Assembly: GCA_025054715.1 (NCBI GenBank)
Contig: JANWYH010000009.1
Coordinates: forward strand, 1-64,000
Source of the DNA: Pyrinomonadaceae bacterium
Lineage (GTDB): Bacteria > Acidobacteriota > Blastocatellia > Pyrinomonadales > Pyrinomonadaceae
Length of the DNA: 64,000 nucleotides
Direction: 5' to 3'
In this document: piece by piece, positions 531 to 9,075 of the stretch
How positions within the stretch are numbered: the first letter of the stretch is position 1
How the letters are laid out: each line of letters begins with the position of its first letter
Notes under the pieces: model-generated
What the model saw: the letters and a program-made list of their open reading frames with translations, nothing else
What the model was told of the DNA's origin: nothing
Database searches by the model: none
Program-made: the position numbers and the translations under genes

Positions 531-822
531 TAGATATTCAAGTCCTAAAACTGTGAAACTGAATCTGTTTATTAAGTATCTATGCCCCGAAAGCCTAATC
601 TTAAAAGTTACACAAGATGCTTAATGCCCCTTTGAATACCGTAAGATTTACAAATAAAAACGGCCAAAAGTAAAAGAAGATTGGCTTTATTAAGGAGCCT
701 AAAAGCTTTAAAAGAACTCAATTGTGATTTTCACAAAAAGAAAAAACTCTTGAAAAGATGTTTTGCTTTCGGTCAAAATAATTTTGGCTTGTCGAAAAAA
801 ATTCTCAGAAAAAGTGCGAAAA

Positions 823-2217
823 ATGAAGAAACTACTAGTTGTTGACGATGAGCAGAGCTATAGACAACTTTTAAGTCTTGTCTTTGAGTCCGAAGGTCAT
901 CAAGTTTATACGGCATCTTCAGGCGAAGAAGCTCTGAAAATATTGCGAAAAGAAAACGTTCAAGTCCTGATTTCGGATGTAAGACTTCCTGACATGGATG
1001 GGATACAGGTATTACGACTTTCACGACAAATATCACCCGATATAGGCGTAGTGATGATAACAGCCTTCGCAACTGTTGAAACGGCTCGGGAAGCTTTCAA
1101 ACTTGGTGCTGATGACTTTGTTCAAAAACCATTTGATATTGAAGAACTGAAAGTAATAGTCCGAAAAGTTATAGAAAAGCAAGCTCTAATTGATGAAAAT
1201 CGAGCATTCAAAAGAGCACAACGAGAGCGTGGACGCATAACTAACATCATCGGCAATTCGCCCAAAATGCAAGCAGTTTTTCAGATGATTGAAACTGTAG
1301 CCGAGGTTCAATCAACAGTTCTTATCACGGGTGAGTCAGGAACAGGAAAAGAATTAGTCGCCCGAGCAATCCATGAGCTGTCTTCAAGAGCCGAAAAACC
1401 TTTTATCTCGGTAAATTGTGGAGCGTTTACGGAAACGCTACTTGAGTCCGAGCTTTTTGGCTACGTAAAAGGAGCATTTACAGGAGCAACGACTAATCGT
1501 AAAGGTCTTTTTGAAGCGGCTAATAAAGGCACTATCTTTCTTGATGAAATAGGTGAGATGTCACCTGCGATGCAAGTAAAGCTTTTACGGGTGCTTCAAG
1601 AAAAACGAGTTCGTCCCGTAGGTGCGCATGAAGAGATTCCCATAGATACTAGAGTAATAGCAGCAACAAATCGAGATTTGCGCTCTTTAGTAGAAGAAGG
1701 TTCCTTCAGAGAAGACTTGTATTACCGAATCTCTGTGATTCCGATTAACCTCCCTCCACTCAGAGAAAGAAAAGAAGATATACCTCTTTTAGTAGAACAT
1801 TTCATCAAGAAATACTGTGAAATAACAGGAAAGAGTCTTTCTATAAGCAAAAAGGCAATGGAGATACTAGAAAACTACTCCTGGCACGGTAACGTTCGTG
1901 AACTCGAGCATACCATTGAAAGAGCTGTTGCGCTTGAGCGAAGCGATTCAATCCAGCCAGAATCTCTCCCAGAACACATAATCAACTATAATCCAGAAAG
2001 AATCAGAGCTGAATTCACGCTCCCTGATGAAGGTATAAACCTATTTGCTCACCTGGAAAATCTTGAAAGAACCTATGTTGTAGAAGCACTGAGGAAAACA
2101 GGTGGAAATCAAACAAAAGCAGCACAACTTCTACAAATGTCTGTTCGATCACTCAGGCATCTACTAGATAAGCACAACATCCGTTCATTATCAGCGAAAA
2201 TGCGAAACCTAGAATAA
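823..2217 (+). CDS. Sigma-54-dependent response regulator, NtrC/PilR type
   Basis: This is a two-component regulator that, when phosphorylated, would activate sigma-54 RNA polymerase. Counting from the ATG at 823, residues 1-120 form a receiver domain with acidic pocket D8/D9, phosphoacceptor D52 and K102. Residues ~138-375 form the AAA+ domain with Walker A GESGTGKE (170-177), the sigma-54 contact loop GAFTGA (217-222) and Walker B (TIFLDEIGE, 237-245). The C-terminus carries a Fis-type helix-turn-helix ([16 protein letters not shown]). The frame is open back to a TTG at 763, but the receiver domain begins exactly at the ATG used here. No histidine kinase is adjacent; the only one in the window is at 14.7 kb. 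Target genes are unknown. Confidence 0.93.
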
Positions 2218-2299: not shown

Positions 2300-5239
2300 A
2301 TGAGGCAATTAGTTTCTTTGTCTCTTATTTTCTTACTTTCCCATTACACCCTCGCCGGTCTTCTTATCCGAAAAGGAGATGGAGTTCGTTTTACTGGTGC
2401 AGATGGTGTTGAATATGTAGGTGTTAATGGCATTCGTTTTACAGGTGCTGATGGCCTTTTAGGCGCTGAACTAAACGGCGTTCGCTTCACAGGGGCTGAC
2501 GGAACTAGATTCACAGGGGCGGATGGTGTCCGTTTTACAGGTGCAGATGGAATTACCTATACCGGCACCAACGGTGTTAGATTCACAGGCGCAGATTCTA
2601 TTACATTCGCTTCGGCTAACTCTGTAAGAATTATAGCTCCTAACGGAGCAAGATTTACCGGCGCAGACGGTGTCGTTTACCAAGCAAACACGATTCTTCT
2701 AACGGAACCTCGAGGAATAAGGCTGACTAGGACAAATGGGATTGTCTTCATTGGCGTTGATGGCTTACGTTTTACTGGAGCAGACGCTGATTTTAACAAA
2801 GCAGACGGTGGGAGAATTCGTTCGACCGATGCCGTCAGATTTACCGGAGCTGATGTTGCAATAGGCTTTAATTCTGAAGGAGTAATTTTCAATTTGAGGT
2901 TTCCTCAAAACTTTTCTATAACTTCCCTTGACGAAAACTCAAAGATAGAAATTATTATAACAAAACCTGAATCCGGACTTTTTACAGGCATAGGTGAATA
3001 CACAATTACAGACGAGCTTTATGAAGCGGTTTCAACTGGGTTACAAAGTTTTGATCCTGATTTAGCCGTAAAACTAAATGAATTGACAGATGATAGTAGT
3101 ATCAACGCTGTAATTGTGTTCCATAATTATCCTTCTGAAGAAGACTTACAGTCTCTTATCAATATAGGAATCTTAGGCGGAACGCTTTACAAAATTTTGC
3201 CCATGATAGCCGTTAGCACTACGAAAGCCAAAATTATTCAAGCATCCCGGCTTCCAAATGTGCGCTCTATTTATGGCAATCGAACACTAAATTTTGATAA
3301 CGATCCATATCTGAGGCCCATTCAAATAAGCCGCTTAGCTTCCGATAGGTTCTTGCTACAAAGAAACGGTGGTACTCCCGTTTCAGGAAAAAACATTACC
3401 GTAGCCGTTCTTGACACCGGAGTAAACGGACTTCACAGTGACCTTGCAGGCAGAGTTGTTCAGAACGTTAAACTACTTGACAATCAAAGCATCGGAGTTG
3501 GATTTATCAATCCTAGACCAGTTGAAAATTTGCCAAATACAGACCCAATAAGCGGTCATGGAACATTTGTTGCGGGAATCATCGCCGGCAATGGAGCCAG
3601 CTCAGGCGGAAGATATAAAGGTGTTGCACCTTCGGCGAGAATCTTAGGTCTTAGTGCCGGCGAATTGAGTCTTTTTCATGTTTTATCAGGATTTGACTAC
3701 GTATTAGAAAAAGGTGCAGTCTATAATGTCAAAGTCATAAATTGCAGTTTTTCATCGGACTCAGTTTTTGATTTTAACGATCCTGTCAACATTGCGACAA
3801 AAATGCTAGTAGAGAAGGGTATAAGCGTAGTCTTTTCTGCTGGCAACACCGGACCAAGCAACGCTACCCTGAATCCTTACGCAGTTGCACCTTGGGTAAT
3901 AAGCGTTGGAGCTACGGATCAATTTGGAAAGCTGGCTAGTTTCTCTTCAAGAGGTGTGTTTGGCTCAAGGCTCTTTAGACCTTCACTCGTAGCGCCTGGT
4001 GTAAATCTAATAAGCCTTCGATCTACAACATCTCAAACAGGTATTCTTGGCATCGGCATCGGTGCAGACACCCAAAGACTAGCTCCTCTCGAAATTCCCT
4101 TTTATACAACGGCAAGTGGTACTTCCTTTTCCGCTCCTCAGGTTGCAGGAACGATCGCACTTATGCTCGAAGTAAACCCAAGTTTGACACCAGCCCAAAT
4201 AAAGGACATCTTACAACGTTCTGCAACTCCTCTTCCATTAAATTACGCCCACGAAGTCGGAGCTGGAATGCTGAATACATATGCTGCTGTTCTTGAAGCT
4301 GCAAATCCGGCTTTGAGAATGGGAGCATTTCGTTCTTCATTAGACCAAAATGTTACTTTTGTCAGCTCCAATACCGAAATTTTTGATTCAGTCGTAACAC
4401 CCGGAGAAACTTCCGTAACCGAAATAACATTGCCTGCAAACATCACTCAGATCAACGTTTCAGTTAACTGGGCAAACCCTCTCAATGATTTAAACCTTAA
4501 AATCTACGATGAAAACAATAATCTAGTAGGCATCTCAGATCGAATAAATTTACCCATAATAACTGGCAAAGTCGAAAAAGTGACCATTCAGAATCCTTCC
4601 TTTTCTCGAATAAAAATTGCTGTAAGTCATTCATCAGGAATAGGAGTAACAGAAAACTATTCCATAGTGATAAGCTTTACTTATCCTCAAACACCACAGA
4701 TAACTGATATCAGTTCCATATCTCCAGGCGACCTTCCTTTCGTATTAGAAAGTTTGCAAAAATTGTGCATTGAATTAAATGCAAATGAATTTAAGCCGAA
4801 CTTAAAGGTTTCCAAAGGTGAACTTGCAGAATCTATGCTTCGCTGCGGCGTCGTCCCTCAGTATCTTGCACCCGCGCCAATCTACCAAGATGCTTCAGAC
4901 TTAATAGGAAGAACTGCTGTGGAAAGCGTACAATTCAGTCCTTATGGTAAACTTATGCCTGACATCAACAATAGTAGATTTGGATATTTTGAACCAGCTA
5001 CAAAACTTATCTTAGCGGTAGCCTTAGTTAAAGCGAGTAATATGGAAGATCAAGCTGCATCCCTTACACTTTCGCCTACAGTTACAGATAGATTCTCCAT
5101 ACCAGCAGCATACCGTGGGCACGTTGCTTTTGCTCTACAAAAAGGCTGGCTTTCTCTGGAAAATAATCAATTCAATCCAAATAGAGCTATTGGGAGAGCA
5201 GAGTTAGCAAAAGCAATTATTAGGTTTCTAAAAACTTAA
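2300..5239 (+). CDS. Secreted subtilisin-like (S8) serine protease with octapeptide-repeat N-terminus and SLH-like C-terminus
   Basis: A 979-residue exported protease. A hydrophobic signal peptide (about residues 1-20) is followed by an array of octapeptides centred on GVRFTGAD (residues ~29-186). After a ~170-residue linker or prodomain comes the S8 catalytic domain (~360-665) with Asp372 (VLDTGVNG), His420 (SGHGTFVAG), oxyanion Asn516 (SAGNTGPSN) and nucleophile Ser609 (SGTSFSAPQ). A beta-rich pre-peptidase-like region follows (~700-810). The last ~170 residues contain two SLH-like segments (FKPNLKVSKGELAE and FNPNRAIGRAELAKA), which usually tether proteins to the cell envelope. The catalytic set is complete, so it should be active. 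The gene stands alone, with no inhibitor or secretion gene beside it. Function of the N-terminal repeats is unknown. Confidence 0.93.
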   Translation: MRQLVSLSLIFLLSHYTLAGLLIRKGDGVRFTGADGVEYVGVNGIRFTGADGLLGAELNGVRFTGADGTRFTGADGVRFTGADGITYTGTNGVRFTGADSITFASANSVRIIAPNGARFTGADGVVYQANTILLTEPRGIRLTRTNGIVFIGVDGLRFTGADADFNKADGGRIRSTDAVRFTGADVAIGFNSEGVIFNLRFPQNFSITSLDENSKIEIIITKPESGLFTGIGEYTITDELYEAVSTGLQSFDPDLAVKLNELTDDSSINAVIVFHNYPSEEDLQSLINIGILGGTLYKILPMIAVSTTKAKIIQASRLPNVRSIYGNRTLNFDNDPYLRPIQISRLASDRFLLQRNGGTPVSGKNITVAVLDTGVNGLHSDLAGRVVQNVKLLDNQSIGVGFINPRPVENLPNTDPISGHGTFVAGIIAGNGASSGGRYKGVAPSARILGLSAGELSLFHVLSGFDYVLEKGAVYNVKVINCSFSSDSVFDFNDPVNIATKMLVEKGISVVFSAGNTGPSNATLNPYAVAPWVISVGATDQFGKLASFSSRGVFGSRLFRPSLVAPGVNLISLRSTTSQTGILGIGIGADTQRLAPLEIPFYTTASGTSFSAPQVAGTIALMLEVNPSLTPAQIKDILQRSATPLPLNYAHEVGAGMLNTYAAVLEAANPALRMGAFRSSLDQNVTFVSSNTEIFDSVVTPGETSVTEITLPANITQINVSVNWANPLNDLNLKIYDENNNLVGISDRINLPIITGKVEKVTIQNPSFSRIKIAVSHSSGIGVTENYSIVISFTYPQTPQITDISSISPGDLPFVLESLQKLCIELNANEFKPNLKVSKGELAESMLRCGVVPQYLAPAPIYQDASDLIGRTAVESVQFSPYGKLMPDINNSRFGYFEPATKLILAVALVKASNMEDQAASLTLSPTVTDRFSIPAAYRGHVAFALQKGWLSLENNQFNPNRAIGRAELAKAIIRFLKT
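2387..2857 (+). repeat. In-frame 24-bp (octapeptide) repeat array encoding GVRFTGAD units
   Basis: Nine exact copies of the hexapeptide RFTGAD begin at protein residues 30, 46, 62, 70, 78, 94, 118, 157 and 180. Spacing is 8, 16 or 24 minus 1 residues, so the frame is an 8-residue unit with degenerate copies between the exact ones (for example EYVGVNG, TYTGTNG, VFIGVDG). Two steps of 23 residues show that single residues were lost. The DNA copies differ at synonymous sites, so selection appears to keep the peptide rather than recent duplication. Period and composition suggest a beta-solenoid or ligand-binding stack, which is inference. Confidence 0.9.
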
Positions 5240-5385: not shown

Positions 5386-8300
5386 ATGAGCCGAATAAAC
5401 ATAAGTGAATACATAGCAGAAAATTTTGGAGCAAATGCAAGTTACGTAGAAGCACTGCTAAATCGCTATAAATCAGACCCAAATCTAGTAGATGAGACGT
5501 GGCGAGAGTTTTTTTCTGATTTGCTCAGCAAATCTTCTCCTCTCGATAATGGACAGGAAGCAAGTTCAACAGAAGTGCCCATCACTGCGAAAACCATCTC
5601 CTCTGAAAAACAGAATACCTCAATAGCTCTTGAATCTGATGTCGAGGTAAAGCCTATAACAGGTGCCGCAAAAAAAATAGTCGAAAACATGGAGCAAAGC
5701 CTTACGGTTCCGACAGCAACTAGTTTCCGTGCCGTTCCGGTTAAGCTCCTCGAGGAAAACCGCAGAATCATAAATGAGTACCTTCAGACAAAAGGAAAAA
5801 CCAAAATATCCTTCACACACATAATTGCTTACGCAATCATTAAAGCAATAAAACATTATCCGCAGATGAATGCCACCTATGCCGTAATTAACGGCATTCC
5901 ATCAAGACTTCAGCACGACAGTGTAAACTTAGGCATAGCAGTTGATGTTGAAAGAAAAGACGGAACTAGAAATCTATTAGTTCCAAACATAAAAGCTGCT
6001 GACAAGATGAGTTTCGCTGAATTTGTCGAAGCATATAATCAACAGGTCGAGAAAGCAAGAAAGGGAAAACTCGAGTTAGAAGATTTTCAAGGAACAACAA
6101 TAACACTAACTAATCCAGGCACAATCGGCACTGTAGCCTCGAATCCACGTTTGATGGCTGGTCAAAGCGTCATAATCGCAACCGGAGCAATTGAGTATCC
6201 GGCTGAATACCAAGCAATGACCCCAGCAGCTCTTTCTCAACTCGGAATAAGTAAAGTAATGACTATAACCTCAACCTACGATCATCGAATAATTCAGGGA
6301 GCGGAAAGCGGTTTGTTCTTAGCAAAAATTCATGAGCTTCTCATTGGAAAAGAAAACTTCTACGAAGAAATTTTTTCTGCCTTAGAAATAAACTTCCCTC
6401 CTTTCCACTGGTCAGAAGACTATAACCCCTCGCTTTTTGGTTCCGATCGGATAAGAGAGCAGATTGAAAAACAAGCAAATGTTTTACAACTAATAAACGC
6501 CTACCGCACACGCGGACATCTTCTTGCTGATATTGATCCATTGAACATGACCTCTCACCACGCTACTGAACTAGAACTTGAAAATTTCGGTCTTACCATC
6601 TGGGACTTAGATAGAGAATTCATTACCGGTGGGCTTCACGGAGAAAAAACAGCAACTTTGCGACGAATACTCGAGATTCTACGAAAGGCATATTGCGGTA
6701 AAGTAGGCATAGAATACCGCCACATACAAAGTAAAGAAGAAAAAGAATGGATTCGAAGCCAAGTCCGTAAACACTTTGTTGATACAGAACCCTTACCTAC
6801 GGAAACGAAAAAGCAAATTTTACGCAAACTTATAGAAGCAGAGCAATTCGAGCAGTTTCTTCACAGAAAATACATTGGCCAGAAACGTTTTTCTGTTGAA
6901 GGATGCGAAACCATCATCCCGATGCTTGATCAATTAGTCGAATTGGCAGCAGAGCAAGGCGTGCAAGAAATTTTTATGGGAATGGCTCATAGAGGCAGAT
7001 TAAATGTCCTTTGTAACGTCGTTGATGAAAATATGACAGAAAGAATCCTCACAATGTTTGAGGGCACTTCTCACCCATATTTTCCCGCCGACGAAGGTGA
7101 CGTTAAATACCATCAAGGTGCAATCAGCAAAAGACAAACAAAAACCGGCAAAGAAATAACGATTAGACTAGCAAGTAATCCGTCACATCTTGAGTTTGTA
7201 AATCCTGTAGTTGAAGGAATGGCAAGAGCTAGGCAGGACGAGATTCGAAACGGACAAGGAAAGAGCCGCGAAGAAGCAATTGACCTTGTGCTGCCTGTCT
7301 TGATGCACGGCGATGCAGCTTTTGCAGGACAAGGAATAGTTATGGAAACTTTGCAACTTGCTAACCTAAAAGGCTATAGAACAGGTGGCACGATTCACAT
7401 TGTGATCAACAATCAGATCGGATTTACAACCTCACCAGAATCAGGCCGCAGTTCCATATATTCAACAGATGTAGCTCAAATGACTCAAATGCCGATTTTC
7501 CATATAAATGCCGACGATCCAGAAGCTGCTTATCGCGTCGTTCAGATTGCCCTCGCCTATAGACAAGAATTTAACAAAGACATAACGCTCGATTTAGTAG
7601 GCTTTCGTCGGCTAGGCCATAACGAAGGCGATGAACCTACCTACACGCAACCACTCATGTATGCAAAAGTTAAGTCTCATCCGGGCGTGCGACATCTTTA
7701 CGCTCAGCGCTTAATACTTGAAGGTGTAGTCACACAAGAAGAGCTCGATGAAATGATGCAACAAGTCATCAATAAGTATGAGAACACCTTCAAACGAGTG
7801 AAAAGCATAATTGAAGAAAAGCCCGTAAAAGCTGAAATTAAGCCAATAGTCGAAGAAGAAGATGGCTCAAATGTGATTGAAACATTCACAACGAAAGAAG
7901 TTGTTGAGATTGTCGGAAAGAAAATTTCCATTGTTCCTGAAGGTTTTCATGTAAATCCGAAAATGGTTGGGCAGCTCACTCGCCGTGCAAAAATGGCGTT
8001 GGGTGAAATTCCAATGGATTGGGGCTTTGCAGAAGCGATCGCCATTGGCTCGCTTGTTTTAGATGGCTTTGGTGTTCGACTAAGCGGACAGGATTCAGGG
8101 CGAGGAACATTTAGCCAACGGCATGCTTCAATGTATGATATTCAGACTGGCGCTCGCTGGTCACCTCTGACAGAACTTCGATCGGATAAAAATCCTGCTG
8201 CAAGATTTTATGTCTTCGATAGCCCGCTTTCTGAAGCAGGGGTTCTAGGTTTTGAGTATGGTTATTCAGTAATAGCTGAAAAAAGCCTTGTCATGTGGGA

Positions 8301-9075
8301 AGCTCAGTTTGGTGACTTTTCCAATGGTGCTCAAGTCATTATAGATCAATACATTTCGTCTTCAGAGGACAAATGGGGACAACGCTCAAGATTAACGTTG
8401 CTGCTTCCTCATGGTTACGAAGGACAAGGTCCTGAACATAGTTCAGCAAGGCTTGAAAGGTATCTCCAACTCTGTGCAGAAAATAATATGCAAGTTTGCT
8501 ACCCGACGACTCCAGCTCAATACTTTCACCTACTACGTCGCCAAATGATACAACCTCAAATTCGGCCTCTTATCGTAATGACACCGAAGAGCCTCTTGAG
8601 ACTTCCAGCTTCAACGTCCAAGCTTGAAGAAATCTTAAGTGGTGGCTTCAAACCTGTAATTGATGACGAGAAAATAACCGAAAAATCAAAAGTGAAACGA
8701 GTTATAGTTTGTTCAGGCAAAGTCTTCTATGATCTAGACGCTGCAAGGAATTCTTCAGAGCAGAAAATTGCAATCGTTCGGCTAGAACAATTCTATCCGT
8801 TTCCGAAATTCGCATTAAAAAACACATTAAATTCATACACGAAAGCAGATGAAGTTTTCTGGGTTCAAGAAGAACCAAAAAATATGGGCGGATGGACTTT
8901 CGTTAAAGAAAGAATTGAGGAAATTCTGCCTGAAAAAATAAAATTAAACTATATTGGTCGCCCTGCATCAGCGGCACCAGCTACAGGAAGTTACGCTGTC
9001 CATGAACTAGAACAGAAAAAGCTAGTAGAAGAGGCTCTTAAAATGAGCACTTCAGCGGTTGCCGAAAACCCATAA
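5386..9075 (+). CDS. kgd: Multifunctional 2-oxoglutarate metabolism enzyme (E2-E1 fusion, Kgd type)
   Basis: At 1229 residues this matches the mycobacterial/actinobacterial Kgd (SucA-like fusion) in length and order. A short E1-type N-terminal helix (residues ~5-45) and a linker lead into a dihydrolipoyl-succinyltransferase catalytic domain (~95-325) with the active-site motif DHRIIQG (His300). The thiamine-diphosphate E1 component follows, with EIFMGMAHRGRLNVL, the ThDP/Mg motif GDAAFAGQG (Asp643) and INNQIGFTT. It decarboxylates 2-oxoglutarate and, together with a lipoylated E2 and Lpd, yields succinyl-CoA in the TCA cycle. No lipoyl domain is present, as in the family. The start ATG at 5386 follows a purine-rich AGGAA stretch. 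No other TCA gene lies in the window. Confidence 0.95.
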   Translation: MSRINISEYIAENFGANASYVEALLNRYKSDPNLVDETWREFFSDLLSKSSPLDNGQEASSTEVPITAKTISSEKQNTSIALESDVEVKPITGAAKKIVENMEQSLTVPTATSFRAVPVKLLEENRRIINEYLQTKGKTKISFTHIIAYAIIKAIKHYPQMNATYAVINGIPSRLQHDSVNLGIAVDVERKDGTRNLLVPNIKAADKMSFAEFVEAYNQQVEKARKGKLELEDFQGTTITLTNPGTIGTVASNPRLMAGQSVIIATGAIEYPAEYQAMTPAALSQLGISKVMTITSTYDHRIIQGAESGLFLAKIHELLIGKENFYEEIFSALEINFPPFHWSEDYNPSLFGSDRIREQIEKQANVLQLINAYRTRGHLLADIDPLNMTSHHATELELENFGLTIWDLDREFITGGLHGEKTATLRRILEILRKAYCGKVGIEYRHIQSKEEKEWIRSQVRKHFVDTEPLPTETKKQILRKLIEAEQFEQFLHRKYIGQKRFSVEGCETIIPMLDQLVELAAEQGVQEIFMGMAHRGRLNVLCNVVDENMTERILTMFEGTSHPYFPADEGDVKYHQGAISKRQTKTGKEITIRLASNPSHLEFVNPVVEGMARARQDEIRNGQGKSREEAIDLVLPVLMHGDAAFAGQGIVMETLQLANLKGYRTGGTIHIVINNQIGFTTSPESGRSSIYSTDVAQMTQMPIFHINADDPEAAYRVVQIALAYRQEFNKDITLDLVGFRRLGHNEGDEPTYTQPLMYAKVKSHPGVRHLYAQRLILEGVVTQEELDEMMQQVINKYENTFKRVKSIIEEKPVKAEIKPIVEEEDGSNVIETFTTKEVVEIVGKKISIVPEGFHVNPKMVGQLTRRAKMALGEIPMDWGFAEAIAIGSLVLDGFGVRLSGQDSGRGTFSQRHASMYDIQTGARWSPLTELRSDKNPAARFYVFDSPLSEAGVLGFEYGYSVIAEKSLVMWEAQFGDFSNGAQVIIDQYISSSEDKWGQRSRLTLLLPHGYEGQGPEHSSARLERYLQLCAENNMQVCYPTTPAQYFHLLRRQMIQPQIRPLIVMTPKSLLRLPASTSKLEEILSGGFKPVIDDEKITEKSKVKRVIVCSGKVFYDLDAARNSSEQKIAIVRLEQFYPFPKFALKNTLNSYTKADEVFWVQEEPKNMGGWTFVKERIEEILPEKIKLNYIGRPASAAPATGSYAVHELEQKKLVEEALKMSTSAVAENP

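Follow-up and report, generated by a model that had tools for sequence, protein, structure and literature searches.

An octapeptide array with lineage-specific uniformity ahead of a secreted subtilisin in one class of Acidobacteriota

The stretch of DNA analyzed here (the window, 64,000 nucleotides of a contig from a Pyrinomonadaceae bacterium) encodes a secreted subtilisin preceded by an array of octapeptides. This repeat is conserved in related genomes, its variable residue pair is uniform within each protein and differs from one lineage to another, the synonymous codons of its copies are scrambled, and its gene is linked to that of a large regulator. The interpretation that we hold, with a confidence that only narrowly favours it, is that the array forms a beta-helix in the pro-region of a surface subtilisin that is anchored by SLH repeats and controlled by the regulator, and that it is uniform through selection on stacked side chains. 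An initial annotation had drawn attention to the octapeptides of the window protein; their lineage-specific uniformity, their position ahead of an I9-type propeptide and the conserved STAND-TPR-BTAD regulator had not been seen. The co-inheritance of the array protease and this regulator points to a surface protease module of one class of Acidobacteriota which is described neither in the family libraries nor in the open literature searched, and no description of the octapeptide motif was found in that literature.

The array and the protease that carries it

The features of the protease gene are the following (window coordinates):

2300..5239, forward strand: array-bearing S8/SLH protease, open reading frame of 979 aa
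2300..2356, forward strand: signal peptide, residues 1-19, ending ...YTLA before G (by-eye reading of the sequence)
2381..2854, forward strand: GhRFTGAD octapeptide array, residues 28-185 (nine exact RFTGAD cores and degenerate octads; orthologous arrays)
2855..3010, forward strand: degenerate end of the same predicted beta-solenoid (AlphaFold and ortholog comparison)
3038..3289, forward strand: I9/Tk-SP-like propeptide, LQSFDPDLAVKL ... VRSIYGNRTL (Tk-SP_N-pro below cut-off; 3afg, Tk-SP with its propeptide)
3386..4267, forward strand: S8 subtilisin catalytic domain (triad D372, H420 and S609, motifs intact)
4355..4690, forward strand: C-terminal beta domain, Tk-SP-like (structure model and structural match)
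4700..5236, forward strand: SLH region, likely cell-wall anchor (PF00395 above cut-off)

The repeated unit, G-h-x-x-T-G-A-D, is represented in the window protein by nine exact RFTGAD copies, as announced by the initial annotation, which start at residues 30, 46, 62, 70, 78, 94, 118, 157 and 180, extend over residues 30-185 and stand directly behind the signal peptide (MRQLVSLSLIFLLSHYTLAG). The steps between them are of 16, 16, 8, 8, 16, 24, 39 and 23 residues; those of 8, 16 or 23 initially reported do occur, and the list was incomplete for the steps of 24 and 39. Each of 20,000 shuffles yielded at most one RFTGAD copy. The synonymous differences previously remarked between copies were recovered, with a codon identity of 0.35 where the remainder of the gene predicts 0.37, and Tandem Repeats Finder returned nothing at the DNA level over the array, which is therefore a peptide repeat and not a DNA repeat. 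No second array of this kind occurs in the 2.45-Mb window genome (99% complete). In line with the initial impression of an unnamed repeat family, the window array exceeded the cut-off of no named family in family-library searches; a weak match to PCF11_RFEG_rpt (PF20844), with 26.5 bits under a gathering cut-off of 43, was read as an effect of composition.

The secreted subtilisin recognized behind the array has a signal peptide, whose A-G junction is almost invariant in 27 relatives, and an S8 domain (PF00082, 159 bits vs a cut-off of 21.8) with intact triad motifs at 370, 419 and 607. The putative propeptide scores 15.7 bits with Tk-SP_N-pro, under the cut-off of 26.5, and structural alignments begin at about residue 248 or 266. 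From the SLH match (PF00395, 30.0 bits vs a cut-off of 20.8), the window protein is likely an SLH-anchored surface protease. In the orthologs, the stretch matching window 2855..3010 retains GhxxTGAD units.

Immediately upstream of the protease, window 763-2217 encodes an NtrC-like response regulator (receiver, AAA and HTH, by eye), which is not a neighbour at the orthologous protease loci. Immediately downstream, window 5386-9075 is a single ORF of 1,229 aa whose product looks, by eye, like a Kgd-type fusion of an acyltransferase with a 2-oxoglutarate dehydrogenase E1.

Distribution and uniformity of the array

A search of 59 relatives recovered orthologs in 22 of them, at identities of about 40-58%, and others came from Acidobacteria MAGs, bringing the recurrence ahead of S8 proteases in related genomes that the initial annotation had called for. 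The array is present in each ortholog with a complete N-terminus, with interrupter units at matching positions between species. Conversely, the array-free S8 paralogs read in the same genomes pass from the signal peptide immediately to the propeptide, which indicates that a single orthologous group has gained the array as an extra domain. At a larger scale, the tandem TGAD pattern was detected in 49 of 162 genomes of the class, distributed in 23 of 53 genera, with zero matches of a reversed control pattern in the same 162 genomes, and GhxxTGAD arrays were confined to class members in a sample of 257 genomes from the phylum. Isolated pattern matches in two phylum genomes outside the class, one of them within an efflux-type protein, look like chance; seven viral contigs contain a single pattern match each, and phage and plasmid relatives were dismissed, their matches being only low-identity repeat look-alikes. 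The genomes are largely MAGs, some of them fragmentary, and one from the same genus as the window (G001) has neither protease nor regulator.

The variable residue pair, constant inside each protein, is RF in the window and TL, TF, TM, VM, TV, AT, AV, QV or SL elsewhere depending on the lineage, while TGAD is almost constant across arrays. Identity at position 3 reaches 93% in within-protein pairs, as compared to 45% when a given column is compared between species and 43.5% in unrelated pairs; the corresponding values at position 4 are 79%, 23% and 21%. At least 7 changes of position 3 are needed on the protease tree. Other positions have also changed array-wide, position 5 to S (G003, L011) and position 7 to V (L016), I (L027) or T (L113). 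Three arrays of one genus (L009, L055 and L052) have equal block sizes despite the switch of L052 from TL to TF. In part of the TL clade, a secreted protein of 263-305 aa with no Pfam match lies beside the array protease (L037:4940-5854, L036:5008-5868 and L087:9013-9801).

Codon identity among copies is close to that given by the codon usage of the gene itself in the window, L037, L070 (0.31 vs a baseline of 0.32), L076, L079, L026 and L028, and somewhat over the gene baseline in other arrays. A within-column shuffle test revealed an excess of identical 24-nt units in L008, L009, L013, L016, L037, L052 and others, and none in the window, L011, L017, L040, L070 and L079. As the synonymous codons are scrambled as usage predicts in many arrays, the uniformity is not accounted for by recent copying at the DNA level; as identical units are in excess in some arrays only, copying is occasional and selection on the peptide must keep the identity afterwards. 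The selection on the peptide initially proposed is thus supported in a stronger and odder form, the codons being at baseline where the peptide is uniform. Ordinary concerted evolution without function, in which a flexible spacer would be homogenized by neutral gene conversion, could invoke the identical 24-nt units in excess in a sizeable minority of arrays. It is already weakened by these codon tests, since peptides are uniform even where codons are at baseline, and has also to face the conservation of unit number and interrupters; we consider it very improbable.

One genome (G021) contains two modules homogenized to different octads, GITVTGAD and mostly GITATGTD (L088 and L113), indicating that the cause of uniformity is local to the gene; a genome-wide trans-acting cause is unlikely for this reason. 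The family represents a clean natural case of peptide-level uniformity, with about 10-20 copies, one lineage-specific residue pair and randomized codons, and makes it testable whether the identity between repeats is enforced by solenoid stacking, a ligand or a receptor.

Predicted fold and fate of the array

In the full-length AlphaFold model, strands of about 6 residues alternate with 2-residue turns at an 8-residue period, with a pLDDT of about 80-90 over most of residues ~100-230 and under 50 for residues 9-90; the N-terminal region modelled alone reached a mean pLDDT of only 56. The N-terminal model aligns with right-handed beta-helices over about 200 residues (Z 10-12, rmsd mostly 4-5), values which may reflect a generic arrangement in a repeat model, and Foldseek gave no hit below E 0.08. 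The 8-residue-period strands and the beta-helix alignments agree with the short beta-solenoid that was among the initial suggestions, and they support, without proving, a right-handed beta-helix-like solenoid. The recurrence of the array and its predicted solenoid depart from the picture of a disordered region missing from all homologues. Short Pfam matches of regular orthologs to DUF2345, NosD, YabP and DUF3060 were considered repeat-driven and not indicative of membership.

Three chains could also intertwine via their octapeptides into a triple-stranded beta-prism of the type of the T4 gp5 C-terminal domain and VgrG, producing a trimeric surface protease. The 8-residue period with a conserved Gly and an Asp/Asn pair is that of gp5 (PMC3004832), DUF2345 matches concern 13 of 27 members, tblastn retrieved VgrG and phage tail-fibre genes at low identity, and the best PDB profile hit is a tail-fibre chain (E 0.023); however, such scores are inflated by repeats. 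In gp5, G stands at position a and N/D at position b (PMC3004832), whereas the window unit reads D-G-h-x-h-T-G-A, with the reverse order D-G, differently placed hydrophobic residues and no Val at g, and so does not show the gp5-type pattern (Gly a, Asn/Asp b, Val g). The monomer is moreover predicted to be already closed as a solenoid, and we regard the trimer as rather improbable.

Under the preferred reading of a beta-helix pro-region, each GhxxTGAD unit would form one strand and one D-G turn, with probably three units per coil, position 3 of the octad probably constituting an outward-facing ladder and positions 2 and 4 probably the core. Because like units would be stacked on each other, a lineage would be held to one residue pair across all copies. 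A new pair would spread within the gene by occasional gene-conversion-like copying, after which purifying selection on the peptide would keep it while synonymous sites drift. Such side-chain ladders are the best fit to the lineage-specific uniformity, although in mixed arrays the identity between sites 24 residues apart (lag 24), the spacing that stacking should give, did not clearly exceed its permuted value (0.65 vs 0.58). An exposed ladder position filled by nine stacked Arg is not what a solenoid would usually show, and speaks against this fold.

The array precedes the putative I9-type propeptide, which would place it in the pro-region. Standard subtilisin maturation removes what precedes the protease along with the propeptide, and would therefore remove the array unless it remains bound. 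Once the precursor has cut itself at the propeptide/protease junction, the solenoid might depart with the propeptide or stay bound, in which case it could serve as a folding aid, a lid or a surface adhesin. Ladders of T-x-T (or R/V/A/Q/S-x-T) might also bind a repetitive surface (polysaccharide, mineral or ice, for instance) and thereby localize the protease to it, an explanation that we judge unlikely. T-x-T is found in most lineages, and many of the PDB beta-helix matches of the model are carbohydrate-active enzymes; against it, position 3 turns into R, Q, V or A between lineages, and a domain ahead of the propeptide would probably be lost at maturation.

The linked regulator and relations to known systems

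At the relatives' loci examined, the protease adjoins a protein of 1,078-1,158 aa (where complete) composed of a MalT-like STAND head, TPRs and a C-terminal BTAD, the BTAD and TPR being above cut-off; a TonB/Oar-receptor identity for this neighbour of about 1,100 aa was dropped, Pfam giving TPR-BTAD. A STAND-like ATPase of 230-310 aa is the usual further gene. At nine loci the regulator is upstream of the protease and co-oriented, with gaps of 56-401 bp. Among 60 genomes, 21 have both protease and regulator, 2 the protease only, 1 the regulator only and 36 neither. Among the 162 genomes of the class, the array occurs with the regulator in 46 and alone in 3, the regulator alone in 12 and neither in 101 (Fisher p 2e-25, which ignores ancestry and is a guide only); two of those counted as regulator only (G003 and G041) do have arrays in variant spelling. 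Protease and regulator distances are correlated (Mantel rho 0.66, p 0.0003, 14 pairs).

This genetic linkage suggests, without proving it, that protease expression is most likely under the control of the STAND-TPR-BTAD regulator and the small STAND ATPase; the regulator represents a genetic handle on what may be a regulated surface protease system. Against this, the genes are not linked in the genome from which the window comes: the module is spread there over three contigs, with the regulator (C16:153880-157074) and the ATPase (C22:71444-72058) apart from the protease. In that genome, the small STAND ATPase gene (L110:7382-8083) overlaps tail to tail with another S8 protease gene, which is array-free (L110:8069-9460). 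In G025, a single open frame of 2,144 aa (L112:1275-7706, reverse strand) spans both the regulator and the array protease, which are either naturally fused or have lost the stop codon between them, with a start inside the frame. In G044, a signal peptide, six GVVLTGAD units and the propeptide start are fused in frame to the winged-helix/BTAD end of the regulator, without protease (L115:7112-8302, reverse strand), probably as a deletion fusion or a module relic.

The same linkage bears on a multi-copy peptide signal, in which the lineage-specific octapeptide would be set free by the protease of its own chain or by a different one, then imported and recognized by the TPR part of the regulator. 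The uniform, lineage-specific peptide with scrambled codons, the presence of a protease within the secreted precursor itself, the strong co-occurrence with a TPR regulator and the two modules of G021, each with its own regulator and octapeptide variant, are in agreement with this scheme, which would account for uniformity and co-inheritance together; among the elements of RRNPP-like peptide signalling, only the secreted precursor and the linked TPR regulator are seen. We nevertheless lend it little credence, as the octads abut with no evident processing sites, TGAD is nearly constant, the conservation of interrupters from one species to another is what a folded domain would show, and STAND regulators also sense sugars and proteins. 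A broader and equally speculative conception is that of a three-gene surface-signalling module of Acidobacteriota, in which the octapeptide in 10-20 copies would itself be the information read by the STAND-TPR-BTAD regulator, as a released peptide or a solenoid ladder; copy uniformity would in that case reflect selection on a single signal word.

Returning to the pro-region reading, the parts of the window protein behind the array are shared with the Tk-SP type S8 subtilases, namely the S8 domain, the beta domain and, probably, the propeptide. Tk-SP of Thermococcus kodakarensis (3afg) is the best structural match (Z 30; phmmer E 9e-46), limited to these parts; it is archaeal and leaves the octapeptide array and the SLH region unmatched. 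The right-handed parallel beta-helix proteins (NosD, AlgE, tailspikes) resemble the array in predicted coil geometry (again Z 10-12) and differ from it by the lack of significant sequence homology; exact octapeptide uniformity is, to our knowledge, not typical of them. The beta-prism of T4 gp5 and VgrG (DUF2345) shares with the array a period of eight residues and the pairing of Gly with Asp/Asn, but is an intertwined trimer with another residue order and other core positions. The linked regulator matches the N-terminal part of MalT and the C-terminal part of AfsR/BTAD among the large regulators MalT and AfsR/SARP, while remaining below the equivalog cut-offs and differing by the combination of a MalT-like head with a SARP tail and by its linkage to a protease. 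Finally, the octapeptide is absent from the regulator and the ATPase, which distinguishes the present module from the HET-s/NWD2 system as outlined in PMC4344463; the likeness to these STAND and beta-solenoid pairs, which are genetic neighbours, resides in a beta-solenoid repeat gene near a STAND gene (PMC4344463).
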